Assembly (NCBI GenBank): GCA_949775045.1
Contig: OX459100.1
Span: 18,797,268 to 18,861,267, forward strand
Length of the DNA stretch: 64,000 nt
From: Metridium senile
Lineage: Eukaryota > Cnidaria > Anthozoa > Actiniaria > Metridiidae
Direction of reading: 5' to 3'
The position numbers were made by a program, and so were the translations under genes. A model generated the notes under the pieces. It was not told the origin of the DNA. It ran no database searches and saw only the letters and a list, made by a program, of their open reading frames with translations. This document shows, one piece after another, positions 38,166 through 61,017 of this stretch (the first letter of the stretch is position 1; each line of letters starts with the position of its first letter).

Positions 38166-41100
38166 TCAGTCAGCCATTATTCTCACGTCGTAACCATCGG
38201 CTCCAAAGTAATTAAACGCTAAACAAAACCTGACCTTCTTTGCCAAGTACGATTCTCCAATTAGTGGTGTTGGTTCACACAAATCTGCACGAAAGAGGAC
38301 GGTCAGACCTTGAGCTTGTATTTGTCCAACCTTGCCAGTTTTTGTTATGGTTCCTGTTAACTTTCGACACAGCTTGGAATATTCTTCGGGGACGGTGCGC
38401 ATTTTTCTTACCTCCTTGACACGCCCTTCGACCAAAACCAGTTGACCCATTCCTTTGCCGCGACCAAGAAACACAACGGGACAGTCAGCATGACGGAGAT
38501 TATCCCGACGATTATGAACCGCATCCTGGAGTTGATGCCTCATCTTCTGCAATTCATCGGTGTATTGGTCACCGCTTCCCTCCAGTATTCGAATGCATAT
38601 AAAAATATAGCGGTAGAGATAGGAAAGGACGGACTTTCCTTTGGTGGACCAAGCTGCTATTTTGTTTTCTGCAGACACCAGAGGCACAGGAATGTGGGGT
38701 GCAACTTTAACCCACAGACGCATTGTGAGGTTGATTTGTTTGTCATACTTAAGAGCTTCTTCTAGAAGTTGAATCAACTCTCCTGCCATCCTAGAGATAG
38801 GTTTTCCTTTTTCTTTGCACAAATCAAGCTCCATAATTACAATCTGTCGATTGATAGAGGCAGTACTTGTCTTGTTTGTTTTCTTGAGATCTTTAAAATG
38901 CGCTATCAGATCTTCTTTGTTGTCTGTCTGTCTAGCACCTCCTAACCTGAAGACATTTCTGCGGAGCTCAGGATAAAATATGCTGTCAGACACTGTCTCC
39001 AAAATATCTGATGTTTCTGTAAAGCCACTCAGAATAAATGGATGTGCTTTGGTTGATTTCAAGTAGTGAAAGAACCCTCCTTCTACAATGCGGTCAATGT
39101 ATCTAAAGATGTCACACATCATCCTTACATGCGGAATGCAGGAATCTTCGGGTTTATCTGGAGTGATACTAACAGCACGTATGAAGGCTCCAACTCCTTC
39201 CACAGCGAGCTGAATTATCTCTTCCAAAGGTGCTTTCTTGTCGATTTTGTTTTTCACTTGTCTTTTGTACACAATCCCTTTCATCTGAGTAAGCTGGCTT
39301 CGGACATTTCTGTTCAACTGAGAAGCAAGGAGAATTCCTTCGTCTGTGCATCGTAGAGCATCATCAAAACCATCTATACCCATCATCACGCTGTAAAATC
39401 TACCAAGATGAACCTTGAAGAAAGGATTTTCTGGGTGGGCTCGTATGGCTTCATGAAAGACTTTGATGACGTCCTCTTTCTCAGGAATATCTTCAATGAG
39501 GGAAGAAAACTGCTTGGAAGTATTTTCATCGGAAATACGATTGAGAAGTATAGCATTACTTAGATCTTCTTCAATAAATGCAATCAACTCTATAGCTTTA
39601 TTGGCCAGGTGAAGTTTCCAGTTGTCTTTACTGATACCGTGGGGTAGAGTTAAAATCTGGCAGATGATTTCCCGGCTAATGGTGTAGTGACGAGGTCTCC
39701 AACATCCGTAAGCATCTTCAATAAGAAGCTCAGTGGCATTGGGTGGTAGAATGTCATCAATTGAATGTAGTTGGCGAGGTTTTAAGCTGAAGATTACCGC
39801 AAGGGAACTTAAGGGAACCTCTTTTTGGCCATAGTAGAGTGCCATACCTAGAAAACACATGGCCTTCATTTGTGCATCATCAAGACCCTCCAAACAACCT
39901 CTTACAAATGGCTCTAGGCCCTTGAACTCGTCACCAAATGCCACAAGTCCGTAATAAAACGGGGTTTGAAGTTGCTCGTTCAGCTTGAGTTGATCCAGGT
40001 TTAATTTCTTTTGGGGACATTGCGAGCTATAAACCTGGTGGAACATTTGTTGCTCTTTACGTGTAAGGAGTTTTGCCAAAGTAAGGGGATCTTTATGCTT
40101 TTTTTGCTGTTCGTGATGTTGACGGTGTACAACGTGCATAATAAGGCAGGATATTTTGTCGTTGGAAAGGTTGCTGTAAAGCGCTTCGATGTCATAGATA
40201 TCAGCACCTGTACAGTCCTTTATATCAGCCAAAATCAGAATTGGAAGTGAACAGAACTGCCAGACAACTTTGATCGCCAGAAAGGTTTCTTGGTTGATGG
40301 CTTTGAGGCAAACGCAAGGATATTTTAAGTGGAAATCATATAGAATTTTCCTTGCAGACGTTGTTCCTCCTGTTCCACGTTGATGAAACAGTGTCTTAGA
40401 TGCTGCTCCTGAGTACTCCAATTCGCGATTAATGGCTTTCTTTATGGGCTCCCACGACTCTCTCTCCACTGCATAATTCATCTCTATCCCATACCATGAG
40501 ATTTGACCTCCCCTGTAAAAATGGTAAGCGTCATCTTTGCCAAATTCTGGACTTTCTCCTACGGTAGTATAGAGAAGCTCTAGTACTGAATTGACCCATC
40601 GCATGGATTGCGGAAGTGCTTCATGCTGTATTGTGCCAGAGCCATCAGATTTTGGAAGGGAAAAATCTGCATTGGCGTCATACAAAGGATTGCAAATCGC
40701 AGTGCTGTAGATAGCTCTGAAGAAGTCTGAGAGATCCACATTAAGTATATTGGTATTCCAGTTTTCCGCGATGTCTTCAAGCCTTTGATCCTCTTTGTTT
40801 GATGAGGAGATAAACTTCACTTGGACAGCATTCTTCCAGAATGGTATTATCTTGAACCCATTAAGAACGTCGTACAGATGCTTATAAACGCGTTTGTTTT
40901 GATTTGACGGTGTCCATAGTGTCAGAAGTGTGACTGGACAAGAATACCTCTTCTTCAGTTGAATGAGAATTTCATGAATCCAATCCAAGTGGTTGTCTAT
41001 ATTTCTTGGCATGTCTGGCAAACCTTGTAGCAAAATCCATGGAATACCATTTGGCAAATGTTTTACTTCCTCATTTTGGGAAGGAGGCAGCATTCTGCAG

Positions 41101-42580
41101 GCAGGTTTACCAGTGTTCTCTAGAAATGTTTCGCACGTTTTGAGGTGGCCAGTTGTCACACTGTTCTGGTCAAAATCAAAAACCGCTACCCACGGTATAA
41201 GTCCAAGATGCACTGCCTCGGGTAAGGCAGCTTCAGCCGGGGAAAGTAACAGAACGAACTTGTGTCGCTTGTCAAACAATTTCAAGTCCTTAACCAACTC
41301 TAGGGTAGAATCTGGAATCCGTTTGCTGCTCATCAAGCACTGGTGCTGTTTTTCTATTTTGGGAGGGAGTTTACCAGACTTTAATATTTCATCTACGACA
41401 CGCTGCGCTGTTTTGTCCCAAGTAAACATCTTGTTCCACTCGGACCTCAGTGCTTCAGCAGAGGAAAAGGCTTTATTGTGATCATAAGAAGCTTTATCTA
41501 TTTCATTTGCCCAAACACAGGCATCATCATCTTCATCATCATCATCAACATTGCCTGAACATTCTGATGAAATATCTTTAATACAATAATGAAACTGTCC
41601 AGGGAGGTGTTTGCGAATGGTATGGGCAAGACCATTGCGTGAGCTTATGACAATTGGTATTCCAATTGCAATCGCATCTAAAGCGCTCACACCAAACGCT
41701 TCAGTTCTTGCTGGCGATAAGAACAACGTGGCTCCTTGAAGATCAATTAGGGCTTGTTTTCTTTCTGGCAGCTCATTCGTATTCAAATCAACATACTTAT
41801 TTTCAATTTCTTTCATAACTTTTTTTGAGGACTTTGTAGAAGCTTTGGAATCAGTGTTCTTGACCATCAGGGTTGATTTTCCTGGAGGGGTGTTGCGCCT
41901 ACTGGATTTGTTGACTGCTTGAATGGCTATATTTAGTCCACTGGCCAATGGTGAACAGAATCTGGCAGGGACGAAATATCGATTGTTATGTGACGACATA
42001 CTATTTCTGGTGTCAAGCTTTGGAAGTCCTGGAATGATTTCCATGACATCTCGGTTAAGGAGACCACTCCATTTTTCACATAGAAGTGTTCCAATTGCAG
42101 CAACGAAGTCGGCAGATCTTGCCAATTCTTCCTCCTTGCATTGCTTATCCACAATGTTGTCGTACTTTAATGACTCATCTGGAAGATCATGGATTACATG
42201 CAGTCGCAGGGCCGACACTTTCTCTGAGTAAAAAATAGCAGCAGGGCCAGTGACTTTGCCGTGTCCAACGACTAAGTTAGGAGAAAAAGGAAGTGCCCCA
42301 AGGTCGTGGTGCTGAAAACGTTGTTGGTTATCTACCTGAAATCCAGGCGTCTCTGAACACGTTATCAATTCAATCTTTTCTTTTCGTGCTTCCTCTCTCT
42401 CGGCCTCAGAAGAGGTTAAAACTAGGCAAGCAACACAATGCCCTGCTCGTGCTAATGCAAGGCAAAGCTCGCGATTAAACACGGGTATACTCTCCCCCCA
42501 GCAATTCCATTCGTTACATATCAATAGAATGTACCATGAATGGTCTGCATTGACATTTTCTCCTGGATCTTTGGCGATTT
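38166..42580 (-). CDS. DED/STAND gene exon 5: GT-B-like domain and complete SAMD9-like core
   Basis: The acceptor is TTACTTTCTTAG|AAATCG; the first two bases complete a Glu codon with the G left by exon 4. The 4.4-kb exon starts IAKDPGENVNADHSWYILLI and the GT-like part begins ICNEWNCWGESIPVFNREL, with SPARTEAFGVSALDAIAIG as the C-terminal donor-site region (E808; D816 where an E is expected). SAMD9-type landmarks follow: IPWVAVFDFD, YRGGQISW, RGTGGTTSARKIL, LTRKEQQMFHQ and the tail KKVRFCLAFNYFGADGYDVR. The stop is TGA at 38168-38166. Large single exons are common in SAMD9-type genes. Open frames on the other strand are shadows. Confidence 0.93.
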
Positions 42581-45500
42581 CTAAGAAAGTAATTTATATA
42601 ATGTCAAAACATATGTCAAAAGATAACCAAAATTGCCTTAGGAAAAATAAGAATGCTATAGACCAAAGCCAAAACTTAGCAGCCGCGCCTTTTTTTGCAC
42701 GTAAATGAGGCTTATTATGCAAACAGAGAAAAAACATTCCGTCGCTAAGGACAAAACTACAACTTCATTGACAGCATTTTATAGTCGTTTTTCCACCTTT
42801 TTCTTTTGTAAAATACTAGAATTTTCAACTAAATTACTGCTTTCTACGTTATATTTTACAATAGTTAGCCTTTTTTCAATTTTTAGTAGCATTTTATTTT
42901 GTTTTTGACCTTTACACTGCTCGACTTCACGCCCTTCTGCGATGAAATTATGGAGGAGAAAAGCGATTCAAAGTCAGGTAAATTGATCTTTTTAACTAAT
43001 TAAAAAAAGTTAGCCTTTTTTTAGCCATACATACGACTTCATATAAGTTTTTTAGTTAATTATCTGTCATTTTGTTGGATATTTTTGTTCAAATCGACCT
43101 CGCTACGGCATCGAGATATGTTGATATTTTTGCCGTCAATCAGGTTACTAATCGCTTGCTAGCACTATAAACCTTTAATTTCAATTGTTTATGCTTTTTC
43201 TTTTTGCAATTCTTTGACAAACGTCCTTTTGAATATTGTTTTACAGATGAAAGAAACAAATAAAACATTCCATGTACCTTTTTCGACAGGGCTTCATTGC
43301 TCAAACTATGGTTATAAGAATCGCAGTTATTCGCTTTCCGGTCGAAGAGCAATTTTTCACTTCAATTTTTCAATAATATATTGAGGTCAATGCCAATTCT
43401 ATGGACATCCTCCTGAATAGAAAGACCTTTTTTCACTGCCGTTTCTCTCTACATTTCACAATGAACAAAATCAGCAAAATAGTTATCCATTTTTTATAAA
43501 ACTATCTCTCTTTTTTGCTCTAAGGTGGGTGTGATAGCTAATGTCAGCAAAAATATGAACATATCTCGATACCGTAGCGAGGTCGATTTGAACAAAAATA
43601 TCCAACAAAATGACAGATAATTAACTAAAAAACTTATATGAAGTCGTATGTATGGCTAAAAAAAGGCTAACTTTTTTTAATTAGTTAAAAAGATCAATTT
43701 ACCTGACTTTGAATCGCTTTTCTCCTCCATAATTTCATCGCAGAAGGGCGTGAAGTCGAGCAGTGTAAAGGTCAAAAACAAAATAAAATGCTACTAAAAA
43801 TTGAAAAAAGGCTAACTATTGTAAAATATAACGTAGAAAGCAGTAATTTAGTTGAAAATTCTAGTATTTTACAAAAGAAAAAGGTGGAAAAACGACTATA
43901 AAATGCTGTCAATGAAGTTGTAGTTTTGTCCTTAGCGACGGAATGTTTTTTCTCTGTTTGCATAATAAGCCTCATTTCCGTGCAAAAAAAGGCGCGGCTG
44001 CTAAGTTTTGGCTTTGGTCTATACACTTTACATACCTGAAGAAAGTTTGTTTGCAGGTTTAGGGTTAGGATTGTCAACATTCTTTTTCACTTTAGTTGCC
44101 TTTGAAAGAAGCAATACAGAATTCAGAACATATTGTTATAAACATATTTAAAGCGAAGGCATGTCAAAACATCTACCTCCAATTTACTTGACGGTTTGTT
44201 ATTCTGATGATTTGCCTTGTTTTGTGAAGGTTCTGGTAAACCCTGTTGGCGATGTTCATCACTTGGCATTTTTGCATGGTTGGTGGGCAGATCTCTTTTT
44301 GTTCGAATTCCTGTTTCTTGCGACGTAGATGCCCTTGAGCCGACATACTGTCGTGTTTCGTGATAATTATCTTTACTTTTTGGTGTCTTTGTATGACCTG
44401 GTGAAAAAAACATTTCATTCTTTTACTTGATCTTTAGCTTTTTGTGGCTAGCTAGCTAGAGGGTAGTAGCCACTATGTCATCGGGCATGAATGAATGAAA
44501 GAGTGAGTGTTAGCTTTTCCGTGAACCGAACTCTTCTTCGGCGATTACGACATGATCCCAACGATTACGACATGATCCGAACGGACGTTTTCTTATCGAC
44601 CATCCATTGATAAACCAACAAGAGTTCATAATAAGTCAGCTACACTTATTGACAATATATTTTTCAATTTGATTGAGCAACCACTTGTTAGTGGCAATAT
44701 TGTATCGGACATAAGTGATCATTTTACACAATTTTGTATTTTATCCTCGAGAAAGAAGGAATTTACATGCAATGGAAAACAAAAACTACGAGACTTTTCA
44801 AAATTCTCAGAGACTGCATTCATAGAGGATCTTCACGATATCAATTTAGATAATCAGATTAACTGCGACGTACATCAGGATGTTAATCAATTATTCTCCT
44901 CTTTTTATAATAAAGTTAATAAGGCAATTAACAAACATGCACCTGTCAAAACGATTTCGAAACGTAAAAAGAAACAACTATCGAAGCCATGGATAACCAA
45001 GGGGTTGCGTAAATCAATTAGAATAAAAAACAAACTCTACCTTGGTGGAGATAGAAAAAAGTATAACATTTACCGTAATAAAATATCTAAGCTTACAAGA
45101 TTAAGTAAAAAACTTTATTATCATAACTACTTTGAATTTAATATTAGCAATATGAAAAAAACATGGCAAGGAATAAATAGCCTTATATCTAACAAGAAGA
45201 ATAAAAAACTATCTATTAATGCTATCAAACAAAATAACAGAAGCACAACTAAAGATCCTAAAAAGATATCTGACACAATGAATAAACACTTTGCGACTGT
45301 GGGACACAAACTAGCATCTAGCCTGCCCAATTCCAAAGCACCATACTATGAATATCTGGACAATAATAGCCCTCTCAACTCATTTTTCTTTATTCCCGTT
45401 TCTACACTCGAGATAGAATTAGAAATTACTTCCCTCCTGACTAACAAAGCCTATGGCTTGTATTCATTTCCAGTTGCCATATTTAAATGTGCAAAATCGA

Positions 45501-48500
45501 TTTTATCAAAGCCACTTGCAGATATAATGAACCTATCAATAAAGACTGCAATATATCCTTCTAAGTTAAAATATTCTAAGATTGTTCCCATCTATAAAGA
45601 CGGAGATGAAGAAGATCCTGGAAATTATCGCCCAATTTCTCTACTCTCTAACATAAATCGTATTTTTGAGAAACTAGTTTACAACCGACTTAAAAATTAC
45701 ATAGAGTTAAATAATATCCTCCACCCTTCACAGTATGGATTTCGCGAAAAGCATTCAACACAACACGCATTACTAGATTTGATAAGTGAAATCCAAGTGA
45801 ATATGGATAAAAAAATGTTCTCCTGCGGGATATTTATTGATCTACAAAAAGCTTTTGATACAGTCAATCACAAAATATTACTATCTAAACTAGAACATTA
45901 TGGAATTCGAGGGATAACTAATAATTGGTTTGCCTCCTATTTATTTGAGAGAAAGCAAACAACCCAAATTAAATCAAGTATATCTGATAAAGAACAAACA
46001 CTATACGGTGTACCACAAGGATCTGTCCTAGGACCTTTACTTTTTCTACTTTATATAAATGACATCCAAAATTCCAGTGATAAATTCCGCTTCTTCCTAT
46101 TTGCAGACGATACAAACTTACTATATTCAGATACAAACTTGCGATCTCTCGAAAGAACTGTAAATAAGGAACTAGCTAATATTTGCGACTGGCTGCTAGC
46201 TAACAAATTAACATTAAATATTAAGAAATCAAATTATATTATTTTTGCTCCATACCAAAAAAAGTGTGACTTTAATCCAATTATAAATGTACTTGATACC
46301 AATACCCGGAAACTGACACCTCTGGAGAAGAAAGACTACGTTAAATACCTAGGTCTCGTAATTGATCGAAACTTATCTTGGAACTACCATATAAATTACA
46401 TAACTTTGAAAATAAGTAAAACCATCGGCATTATCTCTAGATTGCGCCATTATGTTCCATATTCAACCCTACGTACTATTTATCAATCCTTAGTCCACCC
46501 ATATATCTCTTATGGGCTATCTGTTTGGGGCCAAACTACTAAATCAAACCTAAATAAAATCTTGATTCTTCAAAAACGCGCCCTAAGACTTATGCACTTT
46601 GCTACAAACCGTGAACACGCAATCCCTTTATTTGTGGCTTCTGATATCCTCCCACTAGATATGTTTTACTTTCATACTATCTCAGTGCTGATGCACGACG
46701 TGTATAAAAATATTGCCCCCCCCCGAATATTATAAATTTATTCACTCATGTAACATCTGTACATAATTATCATACTAGAGCTGCTAATTCAGGAAATCTT
46801 TTTATTCAACATGGCAGAACATCCAAATTTAACAAATCGTTCTCCTCCACCGGAAGTAGAATCTGGAATGCAGTCCCTGAGAACATACGTCAATCAAGCA
46901 AAAACCTATTCAAGTCCAAATTAAAAAATAGTTTGAAGCAAATCTTAGAAGAGGAAGACGCATACTTAAATACTTCGGAAATAATATCAAAAATTTCAAA
47001 ATTGAAATAATTGGTACCTCAATTGTATTGTATACATATATTTTCTTTAACAGATCTGTAAAAATATATGTGTGTGTATTATTTAATGTAATATATATGT
47101 CTATATATTATTGTTATTATTATTTATTTATTTATTTTCGGTTAACATTTAAAACATTACTATTTTTGTAATATATTGAAATAATAAGTATAATTGTAAT
47201 ATCAAAATGTAAATCTCTATCTAAAGTATCTGCACAGCCTGCCTCGACTAGTTATGCTACCTGCAGGCTGCGCACGTAAATCAAATGTACAACATTATAT
47301 ATTTATAAATAAATTGAATTGAATAAATTGAATAGCCTTTGACACGTGACCCGAAATCTTCTTCGGCGATTACGACATGATCCGAACGATTACGACATGG
47401 TCCGAACGGACGTTTTCTTATCGATTGATTGAGCGTAAAGTCTACCATTTGTTTTTCTCATCTCTGCGAGTTTGAAGGTGAGTTGTCTATTTTTATGATG
47501 CTTTTCTCCTATTTATCTACAATATCCAGGCACAGTTTTCTGTGCATTTATAAAGTGTTAGATTATCAGAACGTTTACAGGTTTTTTGAGGCTTTGTGGA
47601 GACTAAATGCTGTCAAAACGACCGTTCAACCGAAGCGTTTATGTGACTGCCCGACTATGTGGTACCAGTATCGCCGTAGCTCTTTGGTGATTGTTAAACA
47701 GCCAAATCCGCTTTGGAAAGCAAATAATCTCTTTCGAGAGATCGAAAATTCCCTTTGGGGAACGAAAAACTCCCTTCGGGGAACAATTAATTTCCTTCGG
47801 GAAACATGTTAATTAATATTGCTTCAAATTTGTTGAACATTTTGTTTGTTTACATTGATTACTTTGACAAAACTGTTTCATGGTACATTATTAATGAGAT
47901 AAAGAATAGTTTGTTTATCTCACTTGTTTTTGTTGAAAATTAAAAATGTTTACAGAGGTTAGATTCTATTATCATCTACTCCTTTTATTTGCTGCTTTTT
48001 TAAAACATGTATAATTATAATTCAATATGCACGCTCTGCATGCCTTTTATTTAAAACTCTTAATTCTGCAACAAGAATTCAGAAATGCGATTGTAAAATT
48101 CATATCAGTAAATGCATTTCTGCTCAACTTGACCCAGTTCCATGCAGTTCCATCATAAGGCATAAATATAGGTTTTCATGCGTCAATTCTCTATATTCCT
48201 TTTGCTGTTAAGCTAGCCACATGCAGTCCTAGACTGCCTTTAATTTTTCTTATCTCTGAGCTTACCTTTGTTTAGGACGTATTTTTCTTTATTTGAAATG
48301 TTTTGCTTTGAGGAATGATTTCCCGGCGCTGTTCCTAAATGTGTTGAGGTATTTTGCTTAGAACTAGCTTTACCAGTGACTGTTGGCAAGGATGGTGGAG
48401 CTAAGATATGTTTCTCTTGATTCCCAGCCTGCCTTTGGCTTTCATTAGAGTTTGCTGTGCTTGCGATTTTTTGAATGGCATAGTCTTTGGTATATTTGCT

Positions 48501-51500
48501 AACATCTTTTCCCTCATGTGTTTTCTCATCATTGCCAGTTTGTACTTGGTTACCATGGGTTGGTAGAACTGCTTTCTCATTACGTTTTTCATCTCCTGTC
48601 TGGGAGGTGGTCGTTGCATTTGTCTTCTGAATGCCATGGTGTTTGGTAACTAGCAGCGGATCTTTGCGAACATCTTTTCTCTCTTGCCTTTTCTTATCAT
48701 TGCCAGTTTGTACTTGGTTACCTTGGGTTGGTAAAACTGCTTTCTCGTTACGTTTTTCATTTCCTGTGTGAGAAGTGGTTGTGGCATTTGTCGTGTGAAT
48801 GCCATGATGTTTGTTATCTAGCAACTGTTCTTTGCTAATATATTTTCCCTCTTGCCTTTTCTCAACATCTCCAGGTTCTTGGGTTGGTAGAACTGCTTTC
48901 TCGTTACTTTTTTCACCTCCTGTCTGAGAAATGGTCGTTGCATGTTTCGTGTGAATGCCATGGTGTTTGTTACCTAGCAGCGGATCTTTGCTAACTTCTT
49001 TTACCTCTTGCGTTTTATCAGCATTGCCAGCTTGTGCTTGGTCACCTTGGGTTGGCACAACTAAATTCTCGTTACTCTTGTCATCTTCTGTCTGAGATGT
49101 TTTCGATGCTTCATGTTCTTTTGTAGCTTCATCGTCTTTTAAGTTGGCACTCTCTGTGTTAAATTGTTAACCATACATTGTTTATATAAAATTTCGATAA
49201 TTTTTGAACTTTATTAAATGTATGTTAAGCAATTATTGGATGAGTATTATTTTCATATAATACGAAAACCGAATTCAATAATTGTTTTAATGTTCATTCA
49301 AAATATTTTTACGGCTCAAGTTATGTATATCCAAAACGGCGCTTCTTCAATGATAGTTTAAGGTGATTGACTACATTTGGAAATATTGTTACACTTTTCT
49401 TTAAACTACGATCTTTTCATGTGAAATTTAATGCTGATTCCTAATTTGAAAAGAAAAATGGGGTGTCCCGAGCTTGTTTTTGAGATAATCAGCATTAAGG
49501 TGGCTCGACCCAATAACTTTTCGCGAGTACCGTCCGCATTTGAAGCTCCAGTATAAAAACGCGTTGGGTTCGATTTCAAATCCACTTGAACACATTTCTT
49601 TCATAAAGACTGAATTATGATTTAGGATGTTTTTTTGAGAAATCGGACATAATTTTAATTGATTATTACGAAATATATGTTTTAGCCTTGAGTCCAATAT
49701 TAGCCTTTAAAGTCATTTTCTAGCAAAATGCTTCATACTGCTTACACCTTGAATATTTGCCCCCAGTTGTGGAAAGTTTTATCAAAATTTATAAGGCGGT
49801 TTGCAAGATATAGTTTGTAAGTATAGAGTCCCGTGCAAAATTCGAGAGTTTTGCCCTGTTGAAGCTCAAAACGTGTATGGTTCCTAAATAAAATTTTGCA
49901 TTCTATTCAGCTGTTTTTGTGCGCGCGCACATCGTGGGCTCGAATCGAATGGTCAAAGGGCGTTCAAAAGTAGCCAGTCACCTTAATACATCAACACTGC
50001 CTAAAATCAATATTTTTTTCCAGTAAATATTGACGGAACAATATTTCACATCCTTTTGTTGATTTTTTCAGTGGTGTTTTTGCTTTATTTTCCTTGCAAT
50101 ATTGCGCCTATTTCTTCCTCACTAAGTGAGGGAAACCGTCTTGGATTGGTGGCAGCCATTTTTCCGCTCTCTGCGTGTGACGTGAATCGTCCAATAATTT
50201 TTCAGTTATTGGACGATTGACGTATGTCTTCCAAATTCGGTAAGTGTTAGCAGGTTATGAAACATTAACTGGGCAAAATCGACCAATCAGGAACGGGGAA
50301 ATATTTTGAATGAATAATAATGTAAAATAAAATACTTTAAAATAAAAATGAAATAAATATTATGAAAAAGAATGAAAAATACCAAGGGTAAATACCTTCC
50401 TCTGCTTTAATCTGCTTTATCCTTTCCTCGGGTATTTTTTTCTTTTCCCTATTCCTGGTCTGGATTGAAAACAAAGCTACGAAATTTACATTTGTTTATA
50501 GCTGAGACGAAACAATTAATTCTGCTGCATCCCTCCAATATCTAAAGCAAATCTCGCCAAACAACAAGGATTTAGTTTGATTAACTATAAAGAAGGGAGG
50601 TCTCTGTTTATGTAAGCCTGAAGGGTTCAGGAACCCCCCTTGCAATATTTGTAAAGGAAAATATATATATACTGTGAAAATTTATAATTAAATAAATGAA
50701 TAAGTAAGTAAGTAAGCAAGTAAGTAAGTAATTAAGAGGCCGTCTCGGTAGTGATCGAGCAAAGCTGGAAATGGCCCAAAAATCGACCCACCTCAAAATT
50801 TGTACGATCAAAGCCTATCATTTGACTCATCTATCAGTGCAGTTGGTTTTGAGAAAAAATGATTTTTCGATTTTTTAGACGCAAAAGTAGTAATTAGCAT
50901 TTTTGAGACCAACCAACGCTCAAAAACTACAAAAACAAAGTCTTCTCTAACAAAATCTAAAAGCTTGTTTTCTAAAAATTTCCTATGGGTGATACCTCCA
51001 TCCTAATGCTATTATAGGACAATAAATTTGTTTGATTTAGATTGAAGGGTATTAAGATATTAATTTTTAAGTTTGGTCTATTTTTGCACATTTTAAGTAG
51101 GTGTGAAGTAGGTGACATTCAGATGACTAAAAATCGATGTAGTTTTCATGACTCAAAGATGTCCTTGATTTCTTCTGAAAGCTCTATGTTTATGTTAACT
51201 TTTGGTGTGTTAAAATCCGCGGGCAACTATTTTTCTTTATACGAAAATCGGAGTTCATTTATAGTAATTTCAAGTTTTCGCAATTATCACGCAATCGAAC
51301 TGTCATCGATAAACCAGACCGTAAACAGCAAAATACTATTAGTATTAAGCTAAAATGGTTTGCTGAAACTTAAAAACATTCATTACCTTGTAAAGAGTTA
51401 AAAATTGAAAAAACAAGAGTGAATTTAAAAATAAAGCGAACTATTTTTGACTACGGACAATATGCTTCGAATATGCTAATTAGGTAAACATTGACAACGA

Positions 51501-54500
51501 CAAGAAAAGCAAACTTTTTCCATGGAATTTCTCAATTAAGCCTTTGTATCCAACGATTAGATTAAAAAGAAGCTATTTTAAATCTTATGAAACACATCGA
51601 AGCCCTGTCGATATAAAATAAATGTTGGAAAAATTGATTAACTGTTTGACGTGTGTGGCCTTGTCAATTTCATTATGTAATTTGCGATTTTTCGTCTATT
51701 ACATGTCTAATTTTGATTTTCTATAGACCCCTGATCGACATTGTACTTGTTAACTAGCTGTTTTAGCCTTTAGAGTACATTCAGCCGTTAATGTTTGAGT
51801 TCAAGAACACCTGATTTGCCTCTTCGAATCTGCTTCAATTCTGTCCACTCTAGGAAAGAACGTGTTTGAAAAGTTGCAATTTCATCTACCGTTTTCACTG
51901 GATACAAACAGATACAAGCTAGCTAGCACCGTTCTGGGAGGATATAGAAGGGGTATGTGGCTCAGGTGGTTGTAGTGACATTCTTTTGGACGTGTAAGGA
52001 CCTGTTCAACTGGATTAAGGCTTGATATTACAAGGAAACTATTCAATGCATCACATGTTATATTGTGTGGGTCTTCTTCTTTTGACAAAGGGCTAGACTC
52101 TTTTTGAGATGACGCAGTATTTTGTGAAGAGGATGGGTGGTATATCGATTCCTTACAATGCTACTGTTCAATGTGTAGTTGTTTTAAACGTTGAATAATA
52201 TCATCTGCAGGATCAACACTGTAATCTATATCGCTGTGCCTGATTTCACTAACCGGTTGCTATGAGTGACTTATAATAGTCTTACAATGCACGGCCAACA
52301 GCCATAAAGGGCGCGGTCGAATTCAGATAAGATTTAGTGCGCGATTATTAAGCGAATTAATCAGTTCAAATGATTTTGTTTTTGTTTAGAGCTGACCTAA
52401 AATCAAATTTTTAGAACACCAAAAGCTTTAGTTATAATCATATTCTACCTAGCCTGCGTAAGCAGACCCTTATTTGCCCTCTATTACTTTTTTATTCCCA
52501 TTTATCTTTATGTAATTACTTTAATTTATTCATGATTTTATGTTTGATATATACATTGTCTTGTTAAAGATCATGAAAAAACTGACAAGTGAGAAATATA
52601 ATTGTAAATGAAATCGAAAATAAGTATTTTAATTTGTCAATCACCGATATGATCGAGAATGTGTTTTGGGGGATAGTTGATACTATAAAATGTGATACTT
52701 TTGCGCCTTTTGGCGTTGAGTTTATTGCATAGGAAATGACTATGGCTTACTTACTGTATCGGTATTTTCAGTTAGCTTTATACCACCATACGTTTCTCTA
52801 CACGGTCGACCTATTGCTAATTTAATGGAACACAATTATTATTATTACAATTTTGATTGAAAACTTATTGAATGTGTAGCTTATATCATGTATATCGCGT
52901 CACTTTAATTACGTGCATCAAATCATCTGATCCAACTATGTTTGAAGCCTGATATATCAATGCTTATATATGTCGACCTCTCCAATAAATACCAATTTCA
53001 TCTCGATATCTGTCACACATACTGAGTACGTCGTTACTCAGCTGATTCAAATATCCCTTTACAGCAAAGCAAAAGTGTGATATTCTAATAATTAATTAAT
53101 TGAAATAATCAGTTGAAGCTAGTAGACACATCTGAAAATAGCTGGAGTCTTAATTGTTCTGTAAAGTATGAGATCTCCTTCGTAGGAAATGCCCAGTTTG
53201 TTTATAAATGGGAAGATATGTCGAGCTTGATTGTGCTATCGATACCGTTTCTTCATCTATTTTTCGACGATGTAAAGAGCTACCACGCTCTTTCCCAAGA
53301 TAAACGCCTATTCCACACTTTGCCATGAAGTTTGCTTTACTAACTAGTACTGTGAACAAGCTACTAAATGTGTCGTATTGTAAGTAATTCTTGTAAAACA
53401 AACTTATCAAAGAAAATAAAGATTCGAGGGTCATGCTTGCGAAATCAGTTCTTAGCTGACTGTCTTGCGGCGAGTCAAGTAGATTTTTTTTACAACATGA
53501 ACTAAACATTGCCAAGCTTTTAGCGCAATTGAAATAAGATGTAATAGCTTAGACAGGAAAGACTATCGTAATTTTTTTCGTAAAAGCAAAGTTTTCAAAA
53601 TATATCTATTGCTGTACTTGTCGTGTGTTTTTACAAGGCAAATTAAAATGAAATTGACAAGGCCACACACGTCAAACAGTTAATCAATTTTTCCAACATT
53701 TATTTTATATCGACAGGGCTTCGATGTGTTTCATAAGATTTAAAATAGCTTCTTTTTAATCTAATCGTTGAATACAAAGGCTTAATTGAGAAATTCCAAT
53801 GGAAAAAGTTTGTTTTTCGTGTCGCTGTCAATGTTTACCTAATTAGCATATTCGAAGCATATTGTCCGTAGTCAAAAATAGTTCGCTTTATTTTTAAATT
53901 CACTCTTGTTTTTTCAATTTTTAACTCTTTACAAGGTAATGAATGTTTTTAAGCAAACCATTTTAGCTTAATACTAATAGTATTTTGCTGTTTACGGTCT
54001 GGTTTATCGATGACAGTTCGATTGCGTGATAATTGCGAAAACTTGAAATTACTATAAATGAACTCCGATTTTCGTATAAAGAAAAATAGTTGCCCGCGGA
54101 TTTTAACACACCAAAAGTTAACATAAACATAGAGCTTTCAGAAGAAATCAAGGACATCTTTGAGTCATGAAAACTACATCGATTTTTAGTCATCTGAATG
54201 TCACCTACTTCACACCTACTTAAAATGTGCAAAAATAGACCAAACTTAAAAATTAATATCTTAATACCCTTCAATCCAAATCAAACAAATTTATTGTCCT
54301 ATAATAGCATTAGGATGGAGGTATCACCCATAGGAAATTTTTAGAAAACAAGCTTTTAGATTTTGTTAGAGAAGACTTTGTTTTTGTAGTTTTTGAGCGT
54401 TGGTTGGTCTCAAAAATGCTAATTACTACTTTTGCATCTAAAAAATCGAAAAATCATTTTTTCTCAAAACCAACTGCACTGATAGATGAGTCAAATGATA

Positions 54501-57500
54501 GGCTTTGATCGTACAAATTTTGAGGTGGGTCGATTTTTGGGCCATTTCCAGCTTTGCTCGATCACTACCGAGACGGCCTCTTAAGTAAATAAAATAATAT
54601 CTTATAGGTCAAAGAATCGCTCTATTGAGAGGAAAATTACCTTTCTCATGGGAAAATTCCAAACAATTGTTCAAATTTTGCATCAAAAATCTTTCGACTA
54701 TACCTTACGTTTCCTTTCGATTTTTTATCATGAATTATGGATTAAATTTCTCGAATGACCATATTTCCAAAAGTTTACACTCAGCTTAATATTATTCATC
54801 TATCTATTATTCAGAAAATTGTACCTTTGCAGCACATTCATTCTCTTGATGGGTTATTTCCTTTTATGAAAAGAAAATAGATAAGCAATCACTGGTAGAT
54901 GGCAGTTTTAATAATTCAATAATTTAAATACCGCAGTGTCTATATGTACGGCAGCCCGTCGCGGTCTTTAAAAAACTAAATGACAGGCAGTCCAAAATTT
55001 TGTACAAAATTCGAGAGAATGGCTGAAGTTTATCAAATCAAACTAGTTTTATTTCATATAGAAATATCAAGCGCTTATTTCGAGCTAAGCGGAATTGGAT
55101 AAGGACGTAGTGCCTTCCCTCTACATACTATATAGCCGGCTTGACACTTAGAAATTTTCGCCTTGACCTCAATGTACTCAACGACGTGACTGAGTGTTGG
55201 GCGGTCGTAAGTTTTCTCAAAATCGAAAGGAAACTCTTTCAAACGGTAAATTGAACTAGTCTTAGTTCAAATAGAAAAGAAAGAGCTAAAAGAACTCTAT
55301 TTATTGGTCATGTACAATATTTCAACTATTAAACAATGATGTGTTACGTTACTGCCCGTCACGGTCTGGCATGGACTAAATGACAGGCAGTCCAAACTTT
55401 TCGATTCAATCATAAAAGCTAAAAAAATGCTTTCAAATGTCTTCAAATCAAAGTAGTTTTATTTCACAATATCAAGCGCTTATTGTGAACTAAAAGAACT
55501 CTATTTATTGATAATGTACAATTCAACTATCAACGATGTTTTACGTTACTGCCCGTCACGGTCTGGCATTGACTAAATGACAGGCAGTCCAAACTTTTCA
55601 GTCATAAAAGCTCTTCCAGGTTTTGACGAAAAGTTAAGACAGCGTTAATAGTTCTTTACAACATGAATTTATCTTTTGAAATCGATTGTCTTGACTTTTT
55701 GCTATAAAAAATTGCATTGACTGCCTGTCATTTAGTCCATGCCAGACCGTGACGGGCAGTAACGTAACACATCGTTGATAGTTGAATTGTACATGACCAA
55801 TAAATAGAGTTCTTTTAGCTCTTTCTTTTCTATTTGAACTAAGACTAGTTCAATTTACCGTTTGAAAGAGTTTCCTTTCGATTTTGAGAAAACTTACGAC
55901 CGCCCAACACTCAGTCACGTCGTTGAGTACATTGAGGTCAAGGCGAAAATTTCTAAGTGTCAAGCCGGCTATATAGTATGTAGAGGGAAGGCACTACGTC
56001 CTTATCCAATTCCGCTTAGCTCGAAATAAGCGCTTGATATTTCTATATGAAATAAAACTAGTTTGATTTGATAAACTTCAGCCATTCTCTCGAATTTTGT
56101 ACAAAATTTTGGACTGCCTGTCATTTAGTTTTTTTAAGACCGCGACGGGCTGCCGTACATATAGACACTGCGTTTAAATACTTCAAGGAAAGAGACCTGA
56201 TAGAGTTGTAAGTTTAGTTATACTATTTTCGTAAATGAAAAAAGTGGGTTTTTTTGCATGTTTTAATATTTAAAAGCAGCCACACTAGAGTGCATTTTGT
56301 CAAACTGTTAAATAGTTGACCAATACCTAAATTAATACAAATAAGTAAATAACTATCAGTTATTTGACCTCACATAAATTTGAAATCACGTGAAAACTGT
56401 TCGTTATTTCCGGGGGGAAACGACAAGATCTTATGAATTATTTTTGTTATAAATGTTTGTTGATTTTATTAGAGGAACCTGATTTGCTTGACCGTTAGTT
56501 TTGTAAGCTATATTACATAATTTTCACAAATGAAAAAAATGTTTTTTTTTGCATTTTTTTTATCAGTATAAAAGCAGCCACACTATCATATCATATTTTA
56601 CCTTATTTACGGGATTAACACTGTCTTCGCAAACGTCTGAAACTAAAGAAAACAAAATATGTCAAGTATTCATAGAGGTTTTTTGGTCCCAGCTCAGTAC
56701 TGAGAAAATTAGAGTAATAGACTGTTGCATGCGTGCAATGTAAAAAGAAACTCGATCATATAAGCATAAGTATAAGCATAAGCTAAACACAAGAAAACGA
56801 ACATGTTTGTTTTTCTTATGCTTATGCTTATGCTTATGTCAAGTGAAAAATAGAAGAAACTATCTTGTGCTTGTGCTTATGCACTAGTCAAAGTAAACCC
56901 CCACCCCCCCCCCCCCCCCCCCCCAACCCGGGACAGGGTGGGGGCAATGTGGGGCTTGGGATCACTTTTGTCAAGCAATGGTGCCCAAGGGGGTGGGGAT
57001 AAAGTGAATATTTTACTAGTGTGTTAATATAGTGGGGCATTAGGTCGGGATTGGTTCGAGTATTAAGAAGAGGCCTGGAAACTAAACATTCTCTTAGGAG
57101 AAGGACTGGAAACGAAAAATCACTTCAAAGATAGCTTGGGCTCCCTGTGGCTCTATATGAAAGTCAAGGAGCCCCCCACAGATTTGTTGAACCGGAAGGT
57201 CAGTCATACAAAACTGGAATGCATTGATGACAAATCGCTGAAAAACAAGGTATTAAAAAGCCAAGCAGGTCGATAGCTTTGTTCCCCCGTGGGGGTTGGG
57301 GAGGACTCCCTCCAAAAAATGATAGGGGTGCTTGACGGACGGTTTTGAAAAAGGTACGCATAAATTAACTCAGATAGTGATTTCAGACCCTAAAAGGTAC
57401 GACCACATTAAAAAAAATTTCAATATATATAATCGTAAGTTCGAAAACTGACCCTAAAAGGTATGGTGCCAGTTCGAGACCCTAAAAGGTCCGTCGAGCA

Positions 57501-60109
57501 CCCCTATCCATTTTCTAAGGGAGTCCCCTCCATACCATCCCTCCCCCCCCCCCCCCCACACACACACGGGCTTTGTTCAGCCAGCAGCAGTCAACCAGCC
57601 AGCAGCAGCTAACAGAGCTAAGCAGACTCCTGAAATGTTGTTTGCTGAAGATGAAGATGTGTTTTGTTTGTGTGGTTGGCCAGAGGAGGGTGACATGATT
57701 GCTTGTGACAGCAATCAATGCAAGATTGTATGGTTTCATTTCGACTGTGTTGGCATAAATGTAGCCCCACCTGGTCAATGGTTTTGCCCAGTATGCTTAA
57801 AATGTTAAAATTTGAAATAAAAACTATTTGCTATGACGATGACTCAACCATATATATATATACTTATCTAAAGATAATTTTATTTTTGTTTTTATTTTAT
57901 AAAAGTGTAAACAATATATCCGTGAAACACAAAATGCAATTTTGTACAAAAGAGTGCTAATTAAGCTATAGAAAACAAAGGATTTCGTACAAAATCACTT
58001 TTTTTTTTCACTTATAAAGTTTCACGTATAGACCAAAGCCAAAACTTAGTAGCCGCGCCTTTATAGCGCACGGGAATGAGGCTTATTATGCAAACAGAGA
58101 AAAAACATTCCGTCGCTAAGGACAAAACTACAACTTCATTGACAGCATTTTATAGTCGTTTTTCCACCTTTTTCTTTTGTAAAATACTAGAATTTTCAAC
58201 TAAATTACCGCTTTCTACGTTATATTTTACAATAGTTAGCCTTTTTTCAATTTTTAGTAGCATTTTATTTTGTTTTTGACCTTTACACTGCTCGACTTCA
58301 CGCCCTTCTGCGATGAAATTATGGAGGAGAAAAGTGATTCAAAGTCAGGTAAATCGATCTTTTTAACTAATTGAAAAAAGTTAGCCTTTTTTTAGCCATA
58401 CATACGACTTCATATAAGTTTTTTAGTTAATTATCTATCATTTTGTTGGATATTTTTGTTCAAATCGACCTCGCTACGGCATCGAAATATGTTGACATTT
58501 TTGCTGCCATTAGCTATCACAACCACCTTAGAGCAAAAAAGAGAGATAGTTTAATAAAAAATGGATAACTATTTTGTTGATTTTGTTCATTGTGAAATGT
58601 AGAGAGAAACGGCAGTGAAAAAAAAGGTATTCATATTCAGGAGGATGTCCATAGAATTGGCATTGACTTCAATATATTAAAGTGAAAAATTGGTCTTCGA
58701 CCGGAAAGCGAATAACTGCTATTCTTATAACCATAGTTTGAGCAATGAAGCCCTGTCGAAAAAGGTACATGGAATGTTTTATTTGTTTCTTTCATCTGTA
58801 AAACAATATTGAAAACGATGTTGTCAAAGAATTGTAAAAAGAAAAAGCATAAACAATTGAAATTAAAGGTTTACAGTGCTAGCAAGCGATTAGTAACCTG
58901 ATTGACGGCAAAAATATCAACATATCTCGATGCCGTAGCGAGGTCGATTTGAACAAAAATATCCAACAAAATGATAGATAATTAACTAAAAAACTTATAT
59001 GAAGTCGTATGTATGGCTAAAAAAAGGCTAACTTTTTTCAATTAGTTAAAAAGATCGATTTACCTGACTTTGAATCACTTTTCTCCTCCATAATTTCATC
59101 GCAGAAGGGCGTGAAGTCGAGCAGTGTAAAGGTCAAAAACAAAATAAAATGCTACTAAAAATTGAAAAAAGGCTAACTATTGTAAAATATAACGTAGAAA
59201 GCGGTAATTTAGTTGAAAATTCTAGTATTTTACAAAAGAAAAAGGTGGAAAAACGACTATAAAATGCTGTCAATGAAGTTGTAGTTTTGTCCTTAGCGAC
59301 GGAATGTTTTTTCTCTGTTTGCATAATAAGCCTCATTTCTGTGCGAAAAAAGGCGCGGCTGCTAAGTTTTGGCTTTGGTCTATATTCTAACAGTTTTACT
59401 CTATTATCATTTTTGACTCCAGGGGGTCGGGGATTTGATTTCCATTTCTCTCCCACTAAGTGGGGTATTTACCAACATTTGCCAAGTCAATTTTTCAAAT
59501 GCCCCACTTATCCCCACCCTGTCCCGGGTTGGGGGGGGTGGGGGTTTACTTTGACTAGTGCATTATGCTTATGCTTGTGCTTATGCCTGGTGAAAACCAG
59601 CCTTTAGACATCTGCAGTTTTTGCTGATGTGCACGTTTCATTTTTAGCTTTCAGTTACAGTTAAATTAAAATCTTGTGAGTCACTCACTTCACATGCTTA
59701 CAAAAAGTGGTTTGTTTATAATATAGTTTATGGTATTACCTTCTTTTCGTTCATTTGGTAAGGCTTGAGGACAAATAGCTTCACTCGCGGTCGCAACGGC
59801 TTCGGTGGAGGTCATGCAGTTTCTAAGTTGAAAGTTAGTAATCTTGTCTGCTAGATCTTGCCTTGATGCCGTTACCAACAACTCTAGTAGATCTTCCAGC
59901 TTTTTACAGCTAAGTGTACCTGTATTCTCCAACAACCGAAAGAAATCAAAAACCTCTGATAACAAACTTTTTGTATTTTCTCTTTTTGTTTCATCGTCAC
60001 GACAAACGTTTCCACAGAAAGCGGGAGCCAAAAACAGCATCGTGTCCAAATCATCGCGACTGATTTGGCGAGCGATCTCCAATAGGAGCTTTCTGTATTC
60101 GCGATCCAT
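38166..60109 (-). CDS. DED - repeat linker - GT-B-like - SAMD9-family STAND protein, five exons, 1985 aa
   Basis: Exons are 60109-59740, 49153-48266, 44397-44177, 44099-44036 and 42580-38166. Junction phases 1, 1, 0 and 1 all agree and give 1986 codons with stop. Order: DED (about 1-95), low-complexity linker with four 52-56-aa repeats (about 125-515), GT-B glycosyltransferase-like domain (about 516-913), SIR2-like region with IPWVAVFDFD (about 950-1050), FYRGGQISWYG (1202-1212), P-loop QRGTGGTT (1248-1255), Walker-B-like PILILADIKD (1294-1303), helical/TPR-like segment (about 1545-1685) and a C-terminal OB-like domain (about 1882-1985). The C-terminal two thirds match the layout of SAMD9/SAMD9L, described as STAND-like NTPases in antiviral and death signalling; here a GT-like domain and a DED replace the SAM and AlbA parts. 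Extra small exons in the 10.6-kb intron 1 cannot be excluded. Catalysis and ligand are unknown. Confidence 0.85.
42657..44023. mobile_element. Foldback element, copy 1 (1367 bp), filling intron 4
   Basis: Ends are TATAGACCAAAGCC and GGCTTTGGTCTATA. Inverted arms of about 475 bp flank a unique centre of about 420 bp. It occupies all but 88 bp of the 1455-bp intron 4 of the DED/STAND gene. The same element with its centre reversed lies at 58027-59384. Identical 67-102-residue frames in the arms of both copies are repeat by-products. TA at the ends fits a Tc1/mariner-type target, but the palindromic ends make this uncertain. Confidence 0.88.
44036..44099 (-). CDS. DED/STAND gene exon 4 (64 bp)
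   Basis: The acceptor is CTTCTTTCAAAG|GCAACT and the donor TTCAG|GTATGT. It encodes ATKVKKNVDNPNPKPANKLSS plus one base, of the same Lys/Asn/Pro-rich linker character as exons 2 and 3. Phase 0 in and phase 1 out match its neighbours. Confidence 0.72.
44177..44397 (-). CDS. DED/STAND gene exon 3 (221 bp), disordered linker
   Basis: The acceptor is TTTTTTTCACCAG|GTCATA; the first two bases complete Gly420. It encodes GHTKTPKSKDNYHETRQYVG to NNKPSSKLE and ends GAG|GTAGAT (phase 0), followed by a 77-bp intron. A Ser/Gln/Lys/Asn-rich composition without hydrophobic core suggests a disordered linker. An alternative donor (TCAA|GTAAAT, 13 bp earlier) would break the frame with exon 4. Confidence 0.72.
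44511..44599. repeat. Left copy of long direct repeat flanking the LINE
   Basis: TAGCTTTTCCGTGAACCGAA, then CTTCTTCGGCGATTACGACA, ending GGACGTTTTCTTATCGA, matches 47333-47424 with scattered changes. It itself contains a small tandem repeat (GATTACGACATGATCC twice). It is read as an unusually long target-site duplication. Confidence 0.7.
44600..47010 (+). pseudogene. LINE reverse transcriptase open frame, truncated and frameshifted
   Basis: The open frame shows RT blocks in order: NYRPISLLSNINRIFEKL, LHPSQYGFREKHST, GIFIDLQKAFDTVNH, YGVPQGSVLGPLLFLLYIND and FLFADDTNLLYSD (the catalytic FADD). Such RTs copy element RNA at a nicked target. A 9-base C run at 46716-46724 shifts the frame and gives an early stop at 46735; the usual C-terminal part (HTRAANSGNLFIQ, RIWNAVPENI) continues in another frame to a stop at 47010. 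Without its N-terminal endonuclease it cannot mobilise itself. No virus-like envelope or capsid is present. Confidence 0.9.
44600..47332 (+). mobile_element. 5'-truncated non-LTR retrotransposon (LINE) in intron 2
   Basis: It starts inside the end of the endonuclease domain (PTRVHNKSATLIDNIFFN), continues through reverse transcriptase and ends in an AATTGA-type short-repeat tail (AAATTGAATTGAATAAATTGAA), as CR1/L2-like lines do, rather than in poly(A). It lies opposite to the host gene. It is flanked by a direct repeat of about 90 bp (44511-44599 and 47333-47424). Confidence 0.85.
47333..47424. repeat. Right copy of long direct repeat flanking the LINE
   Basis: It begins directly after the LINE tail: TAGCCTTTGACACGTGACCC, CTTCTTCGGCGATTACGACA, ending GGACGTTTTCTTATCGA. 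Confidence 0.7.
47425..48265. other. Left part of intron 2 next to exon 2; nothing recognised
   Basis: A plus-strand open frame of 127 codons (47429-47812) has no recognisable domain. It includes a short imperfect repeat (CTTTCGAGAGA/CCCTTTGGGGAAC/CTTCGGGGAAC/CTTCGGGAAAC). Confidence 0.4.
48266..49153 (-). CDS. DED/STAND gene exon 2: four-repeat disordered linker
   Basis: The acceptor is TTTAACACAG|AGAGTG; its first two bases complete Glu124 with exon 1's last G. The donor is AAACAAAG|GTAAGC (phase 1). The 295 codons contain four degenerate units of 52-56 residues marked by VLPTQGNQVQTGN, KDPLL, KHHGIHTTNATTTSQTG and EKRNEKA, rich in Thr, Gln, Lys, Asn and His. No hydrophobic core is apparent, so it is probably a flexible spacer between DED and effector. 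The polypyrimidine tract is weak, but phase agreement on both sides supports the exon. Confidence 0.78.
49154..50731. other. Right end of intron 1 (gene orientation); nothing recognised
   Basis: AT-rich sequence with a short GTAA run (50695-50730). Short open frames show no domain. Confidence 0.4.
50736..54580. mobile_element. Foldback DNA element with arms of about 940 bp, bounded by TTAA
   Basis: The terminal sequence GAGGCCGTCTCGGTAGTGAT is inverted as ATCACTACCGAGACGGCCTC, with TTAA directly outside both ends. Arms run to about 51675 and from about 53645 and are nearly identical; each carries the same 103-residue frame (51042-51353 and 53963-54274), a by-product. TTAA targets are typical of piggyBac-type elements, but the ends do not otherwise prove this family. 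The 2-kb centre has two minus-strand frames (51882-52088 and 53150-53515), which could be decayed transposase but are not recognisable. Confidence 0.85.
54932..56172. mobile_element. Mutator-like foldback element with 9-bp target duplication
   Basis: Ends CGCAGTGTCTATATGTACGG and CCGTACATATAGACACTGCG are the tips of inverted arms of about 455 bp. A 9-bp direct repeat TTTAAATAC flanks it (54923-54931 and 56173-56181), the duplication length typical of MULEs. The motif ACTGCCCGTCACGGTCTGGCA recurs inside (near 55350, 55550 and, inverted, 55740). No transposase is encoded. Confidence 0.82.
56182..56867. other. Intron 1 stretch, nothing recognised
   Basis: It contains two diverged copies of TATTAAAAGCAGCCACACTA-type sequence near 56270 and 56570, and an ATAAGCATAAG repeat near 56760-56830. 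No gene is supported. Confidence 0.4.
57285..57545. repeat. Inverted repeat with GACCCTAAAAGG motifs
   Basis: GGGGAGGACTCCCTCC..AGGGGTGCTTGACGG is inverted as CCGTCGAGCACCCCT..GGGAGTCCCCTCC, with several GACCCTAAAAGGTACG copies inside. It resembles 14795-14943. Confidence 0.65.
57635..57808 (+). CDS. PHD-finger terminal exon or gene fragment
   Basis: From ATG 57635 to TAA 57808 a 57-residue frame encodes a complete Cys4-His-Cys3 pattern: CLCG, ACDSNQC, WFHFDCVGI and WFCPVCLKC. PHD fingers of this ING-like type bind histone H3 tails. The frame is open further upstream to a plausible acceptor (GCTTTGTTCAG|CC near 57581), so it may be the last exon of a larger protein. Such short C-terminal PHD fingers also occur at the ends of transposon-encoded proteins. 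It lies inside a TIR-bounded region in an intron on the opposite strand, so it is probably a mobile-element remnant. Expression is unknown. Confidence 0.6.
   Translation: MLFAEDEDVFCLCGWPEEGDMIACDSNQCKIVWFHFDCVGINVAPPGQWFCPVCLKC
58027..59384. mobile_element. Foldback element, copy 2 (1358 bp), in intron 1
   Basis: Ends TATAGACCAAAGCC and GGCTTTGGTCTATA with arms of about 475 bp. The centre carries the same sequence as copy 1 in reverse orientation (GTGCTAGCAAGCGATTAGTA here, its complement there). Copies differ at few positions, so both insertions are fairly recent. Confidence 0.88.
59740..60109 (-). CDS. DED/STAND gene exon 1: death effector domain
   Basis: The ATG at 60109 opens MDREYRKLLLEIARQISRDD. 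The six-helix DED pattern is clear: LLLEIARQISRDDLDTMLFL, then LLSEVFDFFRLLENTGTLS and LEDLLELLVTASRQDLADKI with the RxDL motif (RQDL) of death effector domains. DEDs form homotypic filaments with FADD and caspase-8-type proteins. The donor is AAAAGAAG|GTAATA (phase 1), which fits exon 2 directly. An upstream in-frame TTG (60130) is not preferred. A short upstream ATG (60137, three codons then stop) sits just before the start. Confidence 0.88.
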
Positions 60110-61017
60110 TTTCAGAAGCGTTTTTAGCAAGCCATCGCTACATATTCAGTTAACTTAGTAGCGAAGTAAAACATTCCGGCAAATTAGCCAGAAGCCTCCT
60201 ACTAGTATGGCAACCTGAAGGGCCTTAGCGTCTGATTCCGGGAATTTCCCTATCCCATGATTCTCAGCGAGCTCACCCGACCGGACGTAGAGCTATTAAA
60301 ATAAAAACATACACTCTATGCATAAAGGCGTGGCAATAAACATATCATAGTTAATCAGTTTTGGAATACAACAATGCTTTCAATAAAAAGAGCACATCGA
60401 AATTAGTAAAATTCTAAAGTTTTAATTTAGTAACATAAAATGATAAAAAGCTACAGCTGTTTGAATTTACAAGGATTTGACTGAAAATTTGAACTTTGGG
60501 CTGACGAGCCTCGTTTTCATGTTTTTGGTACATTTCAAATTGCTGATAACTCTGCAGTGATTTAATCCATGACACCATAACTCAACCAAATTACTAATTT
60601 AGACATGCTCGTTCTTGTTGAAAAATATTATTGAAATATTTTATTGTTCATTGTGCTCGTTCCCAGTCCTTTCTCTTTATGCATAGGGTCTATATCTGTT
60701 CGATTTATTTGATTTAGGCTCATTTTTAATAATACATTTTAGCAAAAAATGAAAATCACCACTAAAAAAAATACTTAAAAAAAAAGGTCGAAAAAAGTCG
60801 AATCATATTATAAAAGACCGAAAAGGCCCATGGGGCGGATGATATGATCTTATAATTCCCAGAACAACAAATCGAACTTCCCAGAAAGAATGCTTGTTTA
60901 CTGAAAGATTTCTGTGGAATTTAGTGTTTATTTAACACAATATTGCCAGCTTGTTTTTATCTTACGAAAGATATTTCGAACTTCTATTATTAATTGAGTT
61001 TTTTTTAATTCAAAAGC
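60110..61017. promoter_or_regulatory. Head-to-head promoter region between the DED/STAND and EEPD1-like genes
   Basis: This 908-bp gap separates two divergent start codons, so it should contain both promoters and 5' UTRs. It holds a perfect kappaB palindrome near the DED/STAND side and A-rich runs near 60770. No clear TATA box at a fixed distance is claimed. Confidence 0.6.
60240..60250. promoter_or_regulatory. Perfect palindromic NF-kappaB site GGGAATTTCCC
   Basis: The 11-mer matches the consensus GGGRNWYYCC on both strands. It lies about 130 bp upstream of the DED/STAND ATG and about 770 bp from the divergent gene. Cnidarians have NF-kappaB with conserved DNA-binding preference, so control by this factor is plausible; it is not shown. 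Confidence 0.6.

Follow-up and report, generated by a model that had tools for sequence, protein, structure and literature searches.

A death effector domain, a conflict-type GT4 domain and a SAMD9-type core in a putative sea-anemone immune receptor

What kind of protein is encoded where a death effector domain (DED), a glycosyltransferase-like domain and a SAMD9-type STAND core lie on the same strand of a sea-anemone chromosome? The question is raised by a 64,000-nucleotide stretch of Metridium senile DNA (contig OX459100.1, positions 18,797,268 to 18,861,267; hereafter the window), in which the DED exon is found about 17 kb upstream of a large open reading frame (ORF). A first-pass annotation had read the three parts as one protein in that order, and the order is borne out by Pfam (PF01335 and PF20706) and by a match of the core to the SAMD9 fold. 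The combination of DED, GT4 and SAMD9 core is what appears to be new here; the architecture is real in outline, and its mechanism is unproved. Two of the three parts are encoded by a single exon, arranged as follows:

38166..42580, minus strand: large 3' exon with the GT4 domain, the complete SAMD9 core and the stop codon; acceptor TTACTTTCTTAG
41400..42527, minus strand: GT4-conflict glycosyltransferase-like domain, GT-B fold (PF20706)
40698..41318 (approximate), minus strand: SIR2-like domain
39384..40619 (approximate), minus strand: STAND NTPase module
40359-40385, minus strand: Walker A region (H-Q-R-G-T-G-G-T-T), without the usual lysine
38511..39503 (approximate), minus strand: TPR-type helical array
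38178..38363 (approximate), minus strand: C-terminal OB-like beta domain, from a SAMD9 chain match and strands in the model

The glycosyltransferase-like part, which the first-pass annotation had called GT-B-like, is more precisely a GT4-conflict domain, matching positions 1-384 of the 385 in the PF20706 profile (E = 9.1e-67; 226.1 bits against a cut-off of 26). The core that follows it is assigned to the SAMD9 family by the order SIR2-like, STAND, TPR and OB with a SAMD9 fold, and a phmmer search with this core recovers human SAMD9 (E = 1.8e-5). In addition, the second stretch of a profile from the core alignment (36 rows, the window included) matches residues 1307-1449 (chain numbering) of the SAMD9 chain 9zjr_A, corresponding to the OB-like region. 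In the Walker A motif of the SAMD9 family, glycine replaces lysine (GGT/S) and a histidine lies upstream (PMC5445408; here and below, cited papers are drawn on for part of their text), and both features are present in all 36 rows. Neither SAM nor AlbA_2 is listed by Pfam for the scanned ORFs at E<=1, for which GT4 and DED are listed, and the N-terminus is therefore not that of SAMD9 or SAMD9L proper. The vertebrate proteins differ in this respect, with an N-terminal SAM domain and an AlbA-like tRNase in place of the DED, linker and GT4 (PMC13245274).

The 3' exon lies within a stop-to-stop ORF (38166-42593, minus strand) whose earliest in-frame methionine is residue 184, well within the GT4 domain, so that translation of the whole domain needs a start in an upstream exon. 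Three such exons can be modelled:

59740..60109, minus strand: exon 1, 123 codons plus 1 nucleotide; ATG at 60109 in the context AAAATGG, donor AAG/GTAATA
48266..49153, minus strand: exon 2, repeat linker, 888 nucleotides, phase 1 at both ends; donor AAG/GTAAGC
44188..44397, minus strand: probable exon 3, linker, 210 nucleotides, phase 1 at both ends; acceptor TTTTTTTCACCAG, donor CAA/GTAAAT

Exon 1, whose ATG is preceded on its upstream side by in-frame stops, encodes the DED at about 60097-59828 (PF01335; E = 4.5e-10, 40.1 bits against a curated cut-off of 35.9). No other death-fold family is listed by Pfam for the scanned ORFs at E<=1, and TRADD-N has no match in those ORFs, introns lying outside the scan. 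Joining exons 1 and 2 to the 3' exon by phase-1 joins at AG/GT borders gives 1890 amino acids, and adding the phase-1 exon at 44397-44188 gives 1960. Thus, of the five exons and 1986 codons previously proposed with correct phases, the phases hold at every modelled junction, while the model comes to four exons and 1960 amino acids; a relaxed exon search produced no convincing fifth candidate, and a second scan says little on this point, as its cut-offs also reject accepted exons. A single Metridium senile transcript carrying DED, linker, GT4 and SAMD9 core would follow from this model.

The linker exons are less readily characterised. Exon 2 contains four repeat copies spaced by 168, 168 and 156 nucleotides, each a multiple of 3, and has no Pfam family above cut-off, whereas the probable exon 3 is called from its open frame and splice borders, with no known homologue. 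Among the four repeat units, differences by codon position number 65, 55 and 74, and single-change codons comprise 30 synonymous and 97 non-synonymous cases on about 200 and 736 sites. Such counts place the repeats near neutrality and are no proof of coding. Other sequences are also found in the introns. Between the linker exons is a plus-strand reverse transcriptase ORF (44542-47408; PF00078, 1.7e-35), flanked on each side by about 2 tandem copies of a nearly identical 20-nucleotide sequence. The intron after the DED exon holds a plus-strand PHD-finger ORF (57458-57805; PF00628, 7.6e-6) and three inverted repeats (50729-54587, 58067-59345 and 54932-56172; 640, 443 and 387 nucleotides; 99-100% complementarity), which could be fold-back elements of recent origin or the product of misassembly.

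Is the same arrangement found in other cnidarians? The 38166-42593 ORF is 67% identical to P0001 and to Actinostola P0002, 58% to Actinia tenebrosa P0004, and 39-40% in the shared part to two Acropora proteins. In the case of Acropora muricata P0005 (2010 amino acids, 6 member sequences), a DED at 7-86 is followed by TPRs and by GT4 from 556; in Acropora palmata P0007 (2015 amino acids, 8 member sequences), the DED is at 7-88, again with TPRs, and GT4 starts at 554. Homology of both to the window reaches the end of the core. The order DED, GT4-conflict and SAMD9 core is therefore common to the coral records and the anemone window, and on this ground the architecture seems to be a genuine variant within an already known class of immune receptors. 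The window DED and both Acropora DEDs also have in common the string RxDLA, which includes RxDL, a motif of DEDs.

Both halves of this architecture have been described. The SAMD9 family was reported in Cnidaria in 2017, with members in fish and invertebrates carrying CARD, Death, Pyrin or FIIND domains (Mekhedov, PMC5445408), and such proteins resemble that of the window in joining a SAMD9 core to an N-terminal DEATH-superfamily adaptor. Conflict GT4 domains in metazoans, related to those of bacterial conflict systems as is the window domain, were reported in 2021 (Kaur, PMC8195603), the bacterial ones being fused to STAND NTPases, and those of cnidarians, among others, to TRADD-N; Acropora digitifera has more than 500 GT4 paralogues in variable fusions. 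In the text of the former paper (figure and supplements lay outside the search) there is no mention of glycosyl or death effector, and in the main text of the latter none of SAMD9, its supplementary architecture lists, also outside the search, being a place where the DED-GT4-SAMD9 order may appear. A related 2020 paper (PMC7159879) has, in the part searched, two mentions of glycosyltransferase and none of SAMD9. Literature searches, supplements and figures excepted, named no combined protein. The earlier remark that no described system with this exact order was known thus fits the literature searched, although each half is already in print and public Acropora records show the order too.

The position of GT4 bears on its possible role. 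The tRNase of human SAMD9 spans residues 156-385 (PMC13245274), and in five SAMD9 entries the core match starts at 389 or 390, so that GT4 occupies the effector slot. Among 23 more distant proteins (P0013-P0035), PF04326 is listed for 17, PF01048 for 1, PF19974 for 1 and none of these for 4. Twenty bacterial core loci found by a single peptide pattern, and hence a sample, have 17 readable N-termini (those of L003, L019 and L020 are cut or broken), comprising AlbA_2 in 14, TCAD9 above cut-off in one and below it in another, and no match in one. GT4 is listed for 0 of the 23 proteins and was found in 0 of the 20 bacterial N-terminal pieces scanned. These assignments support a swappable effector slot, filled in bacterial or environmental relatives by AlbA_2, phosphorylase or TCAD9 domains. 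In the bacterial proteins the greater part of the core can be aligned, with 22-29% identity for the majority of the 20 loci, and those in the core alignment have the same Walker A; they differ at the N-terminus, which is mostly AlbA_2, also TCAD9, with GT4 not found.

On balance, we think it somewhat more likely than not that one sea-anemone gene encodes an intracellular STAND-type immune receptor of the form DED-GT4-SAMD9 core. In such a receptor, the C-terminal TPR/OB part would sense a trigger. By analogy with SAMD9, Apaf-1 and NLRs, the SIR2-like and lysine-less STAND modules would first keep the protein inactive and then drive its change into an oligomer. The GT4 domain, in the slot of the SAMD9 tRNase, could act as an enzyme or a ligand-binding part. 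Oligomers would gather DEDs at the N-terminal end of the flexible linker, and the clustered DEDs may recruit DED adaptors or DED caspases, leading to cell death. The far N-terminal place of the DED, at the end of a low-complexity linker, would suit a role in recruiting DED partners, and recruitment of caspase-8-like proteins is plausible. One coral caspase with tandem DEDs has been reported; the part of that paper searched gave zero matches to FADD (PMC7586219). Overall, the first-pass interpretation is supported in part: its architecture and SAMD9 comparison stand, and its five-exon, 1986-codon count was not reproduced.

Several points weigh against this receptor, and one of them is that the GT4 donor site looks degenerate. 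We take GR...KG to be the usual GT4 donor loop and assume its role and exact register. In the GT4 alignment (13 rows, 12 covering the donor site), the usual arginine and lysine of this loop occur together in 0 of 12 rows, with the register set by eye. In the arginine column the window has R, P0001-P0004 have K, and P0005-P0011 show D, N, D, T, I, N and S in turn; the lysine column has K in P0008 only, with serine in the window. The acidic EX7E pair is E...D in six rows (EX7D in the window), D...E in the other six and E/E in none, unlike three solved enzymes, aligned among 38 matches, that keep E/E. For the Glu/Asp order of this pair, P0011 groups with the anemone-like set. By its sequence, the window domain is thus not a typical catalytic GT4, and it could be an enzyme in altered form or serve for binding. 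There is a real, though lesser, chance that it is a pseudo-enzyme, serving as sensor or regulator by binding a nucleotide sugar, a glycan or a partner, with normal transfer lost and the DED as the sole output; this overlaps the receptor reading, which leaves GT4 activity open. However, both acidic positions stay acidic and an HxLP-type histidine is retained in 11 of 12 rows, suggesting a pocket under selection, and GT4 sits in the chain where an effector would be. For related GT4 domains, a role as immune effectors has been predicted (PMC8195603), and a pattern-limited scan of bacterial genomes with the GT4 alignment gave 51 pattern matches and 0 confirmed relatives. Of the roles first considered for this part (sensor, effector or scaffold), effector is thus favoured over sensor by position and opposed by the donor site.

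The remaining points concern the join to the DED, in a gene model known from genomic sequence. An intron of 10.6 kb, containing long inverted repeats that are nearly identical, separates the DED exon from the one that follows. The window DED is weakly like that of Acropora (26% over 50 amino acids, E = 0.027; 8.4 bits in a second comparison), and a search with it, as part of the 1890-residue model, gave zero hits at E<=1 among 182 long-protein candidates and thus did not recover the Acropora proteins. Searching 110 candidates with the Acropora DED returned, at E<=0.01, only the query P0005 and P0007, so that the DED end is not widely recognisable by sequence; the faint likeness fits fast evolution and also allows independent gains. 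Between DED and GT4 the Acropora proteins have TPRs, unlike the window, whose linker has no match, and PF25199 is unlisted for them at E<=0.1, so that their core rests on alignment. Only P0005 and P0007 of the twelve closest relatives (P0001-P0012) have a listed DED; several of the other ten have their start at GT4 or within it, the Actinostola record P0002 carries a partial mark, and Actinia P0004 opens with other sequence, an N-terminus with no convincing match to the window. Taken with phase-1 symmetric exons, which are common in animals, and 17 kb with several repeats between the DED and 3' exons, the weak DED likeness and the ten relatives with no listed DED could mean two genes, a separate upstream DED gene and a GT4-SAMD9-core gene with a missed first exon, joined by an artefact of compatible phases. 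DEDs usually accompany the invertebrate TRADD-N clade and, with TRADD-N, are expanded in cnidarians (PMC8195603). We nevertheless regard two genes as unlikely: the order recurs in two Acropora proteins; strand, AG/GT borders and phases agree at every junction; and the DED frame runs on without a stop through its donor, while the 3' exon depends on a start further upstream. Very unlikely, in our estimate, is a decoy or regulator that damps DED signalling in the manner of cFLIP, whose role is inhibitory; caspase recruitment by the fusion is itself a proposal. The DED protein cFLIP, whose caspase domain is inactive, is described as a regulator (PMC8195603), but the fusion has a complete STAND core, the driver of regulated assembly in known receptors (PMC13245274).

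Other features of the window lie outside this gene. Two similar minus-strand ORFs with laminin-G and EGF domains (11039-12469 and 24572-26929) may represent neurexin/Caspr-type genes arranged in tandem; a nearby ORF (8135-9082) has no Pfam match. A plus-strand ORF (61009-61992) with a helix-hairpin-helix domain (PF12836, 2.3e-17) is head to head with the DED exon; by eye, both the final part of this ORF and the beginning of Actinia P0004 look endonuclease-like. A 78-nucleotide tandem repeat (19 copies, 36551-38034) begins about 130 bp beyond the point where the SAMD9-core gene stops, and is spanned by a 396-codon minus-strand ORF with Pfam scores of repeat type only.

A broader and more doubtful scenario, to which we give a rather low probability, is that cnidarian SAMD9-core receptors swapped the tRNase for a conflict GT4 and added a DED, so that one output would be caspase recruitment and the other sugar transfer (or a sugar-nucleotide-gated switch). 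The eukaryotic STAND proteins characterised earlier signal through recruited adaptors, whereas SAMD9 and prokaryotic Avs carry their own effector (PMC13245274). A SAMD9 core bearing both an adaptor domain and an effector-slot domain would unite these designs. If the scenario is true, the two-output receptor would connect, in evolution, the bacterial-type effector STANDs with the adaptor-recruiting STANDs of animals. A protein with both domains would allow tests of which output was driven by SAMD9-type cores in early animals, and would open cnidarian models for SAMD9-type immunity without the tRNase.
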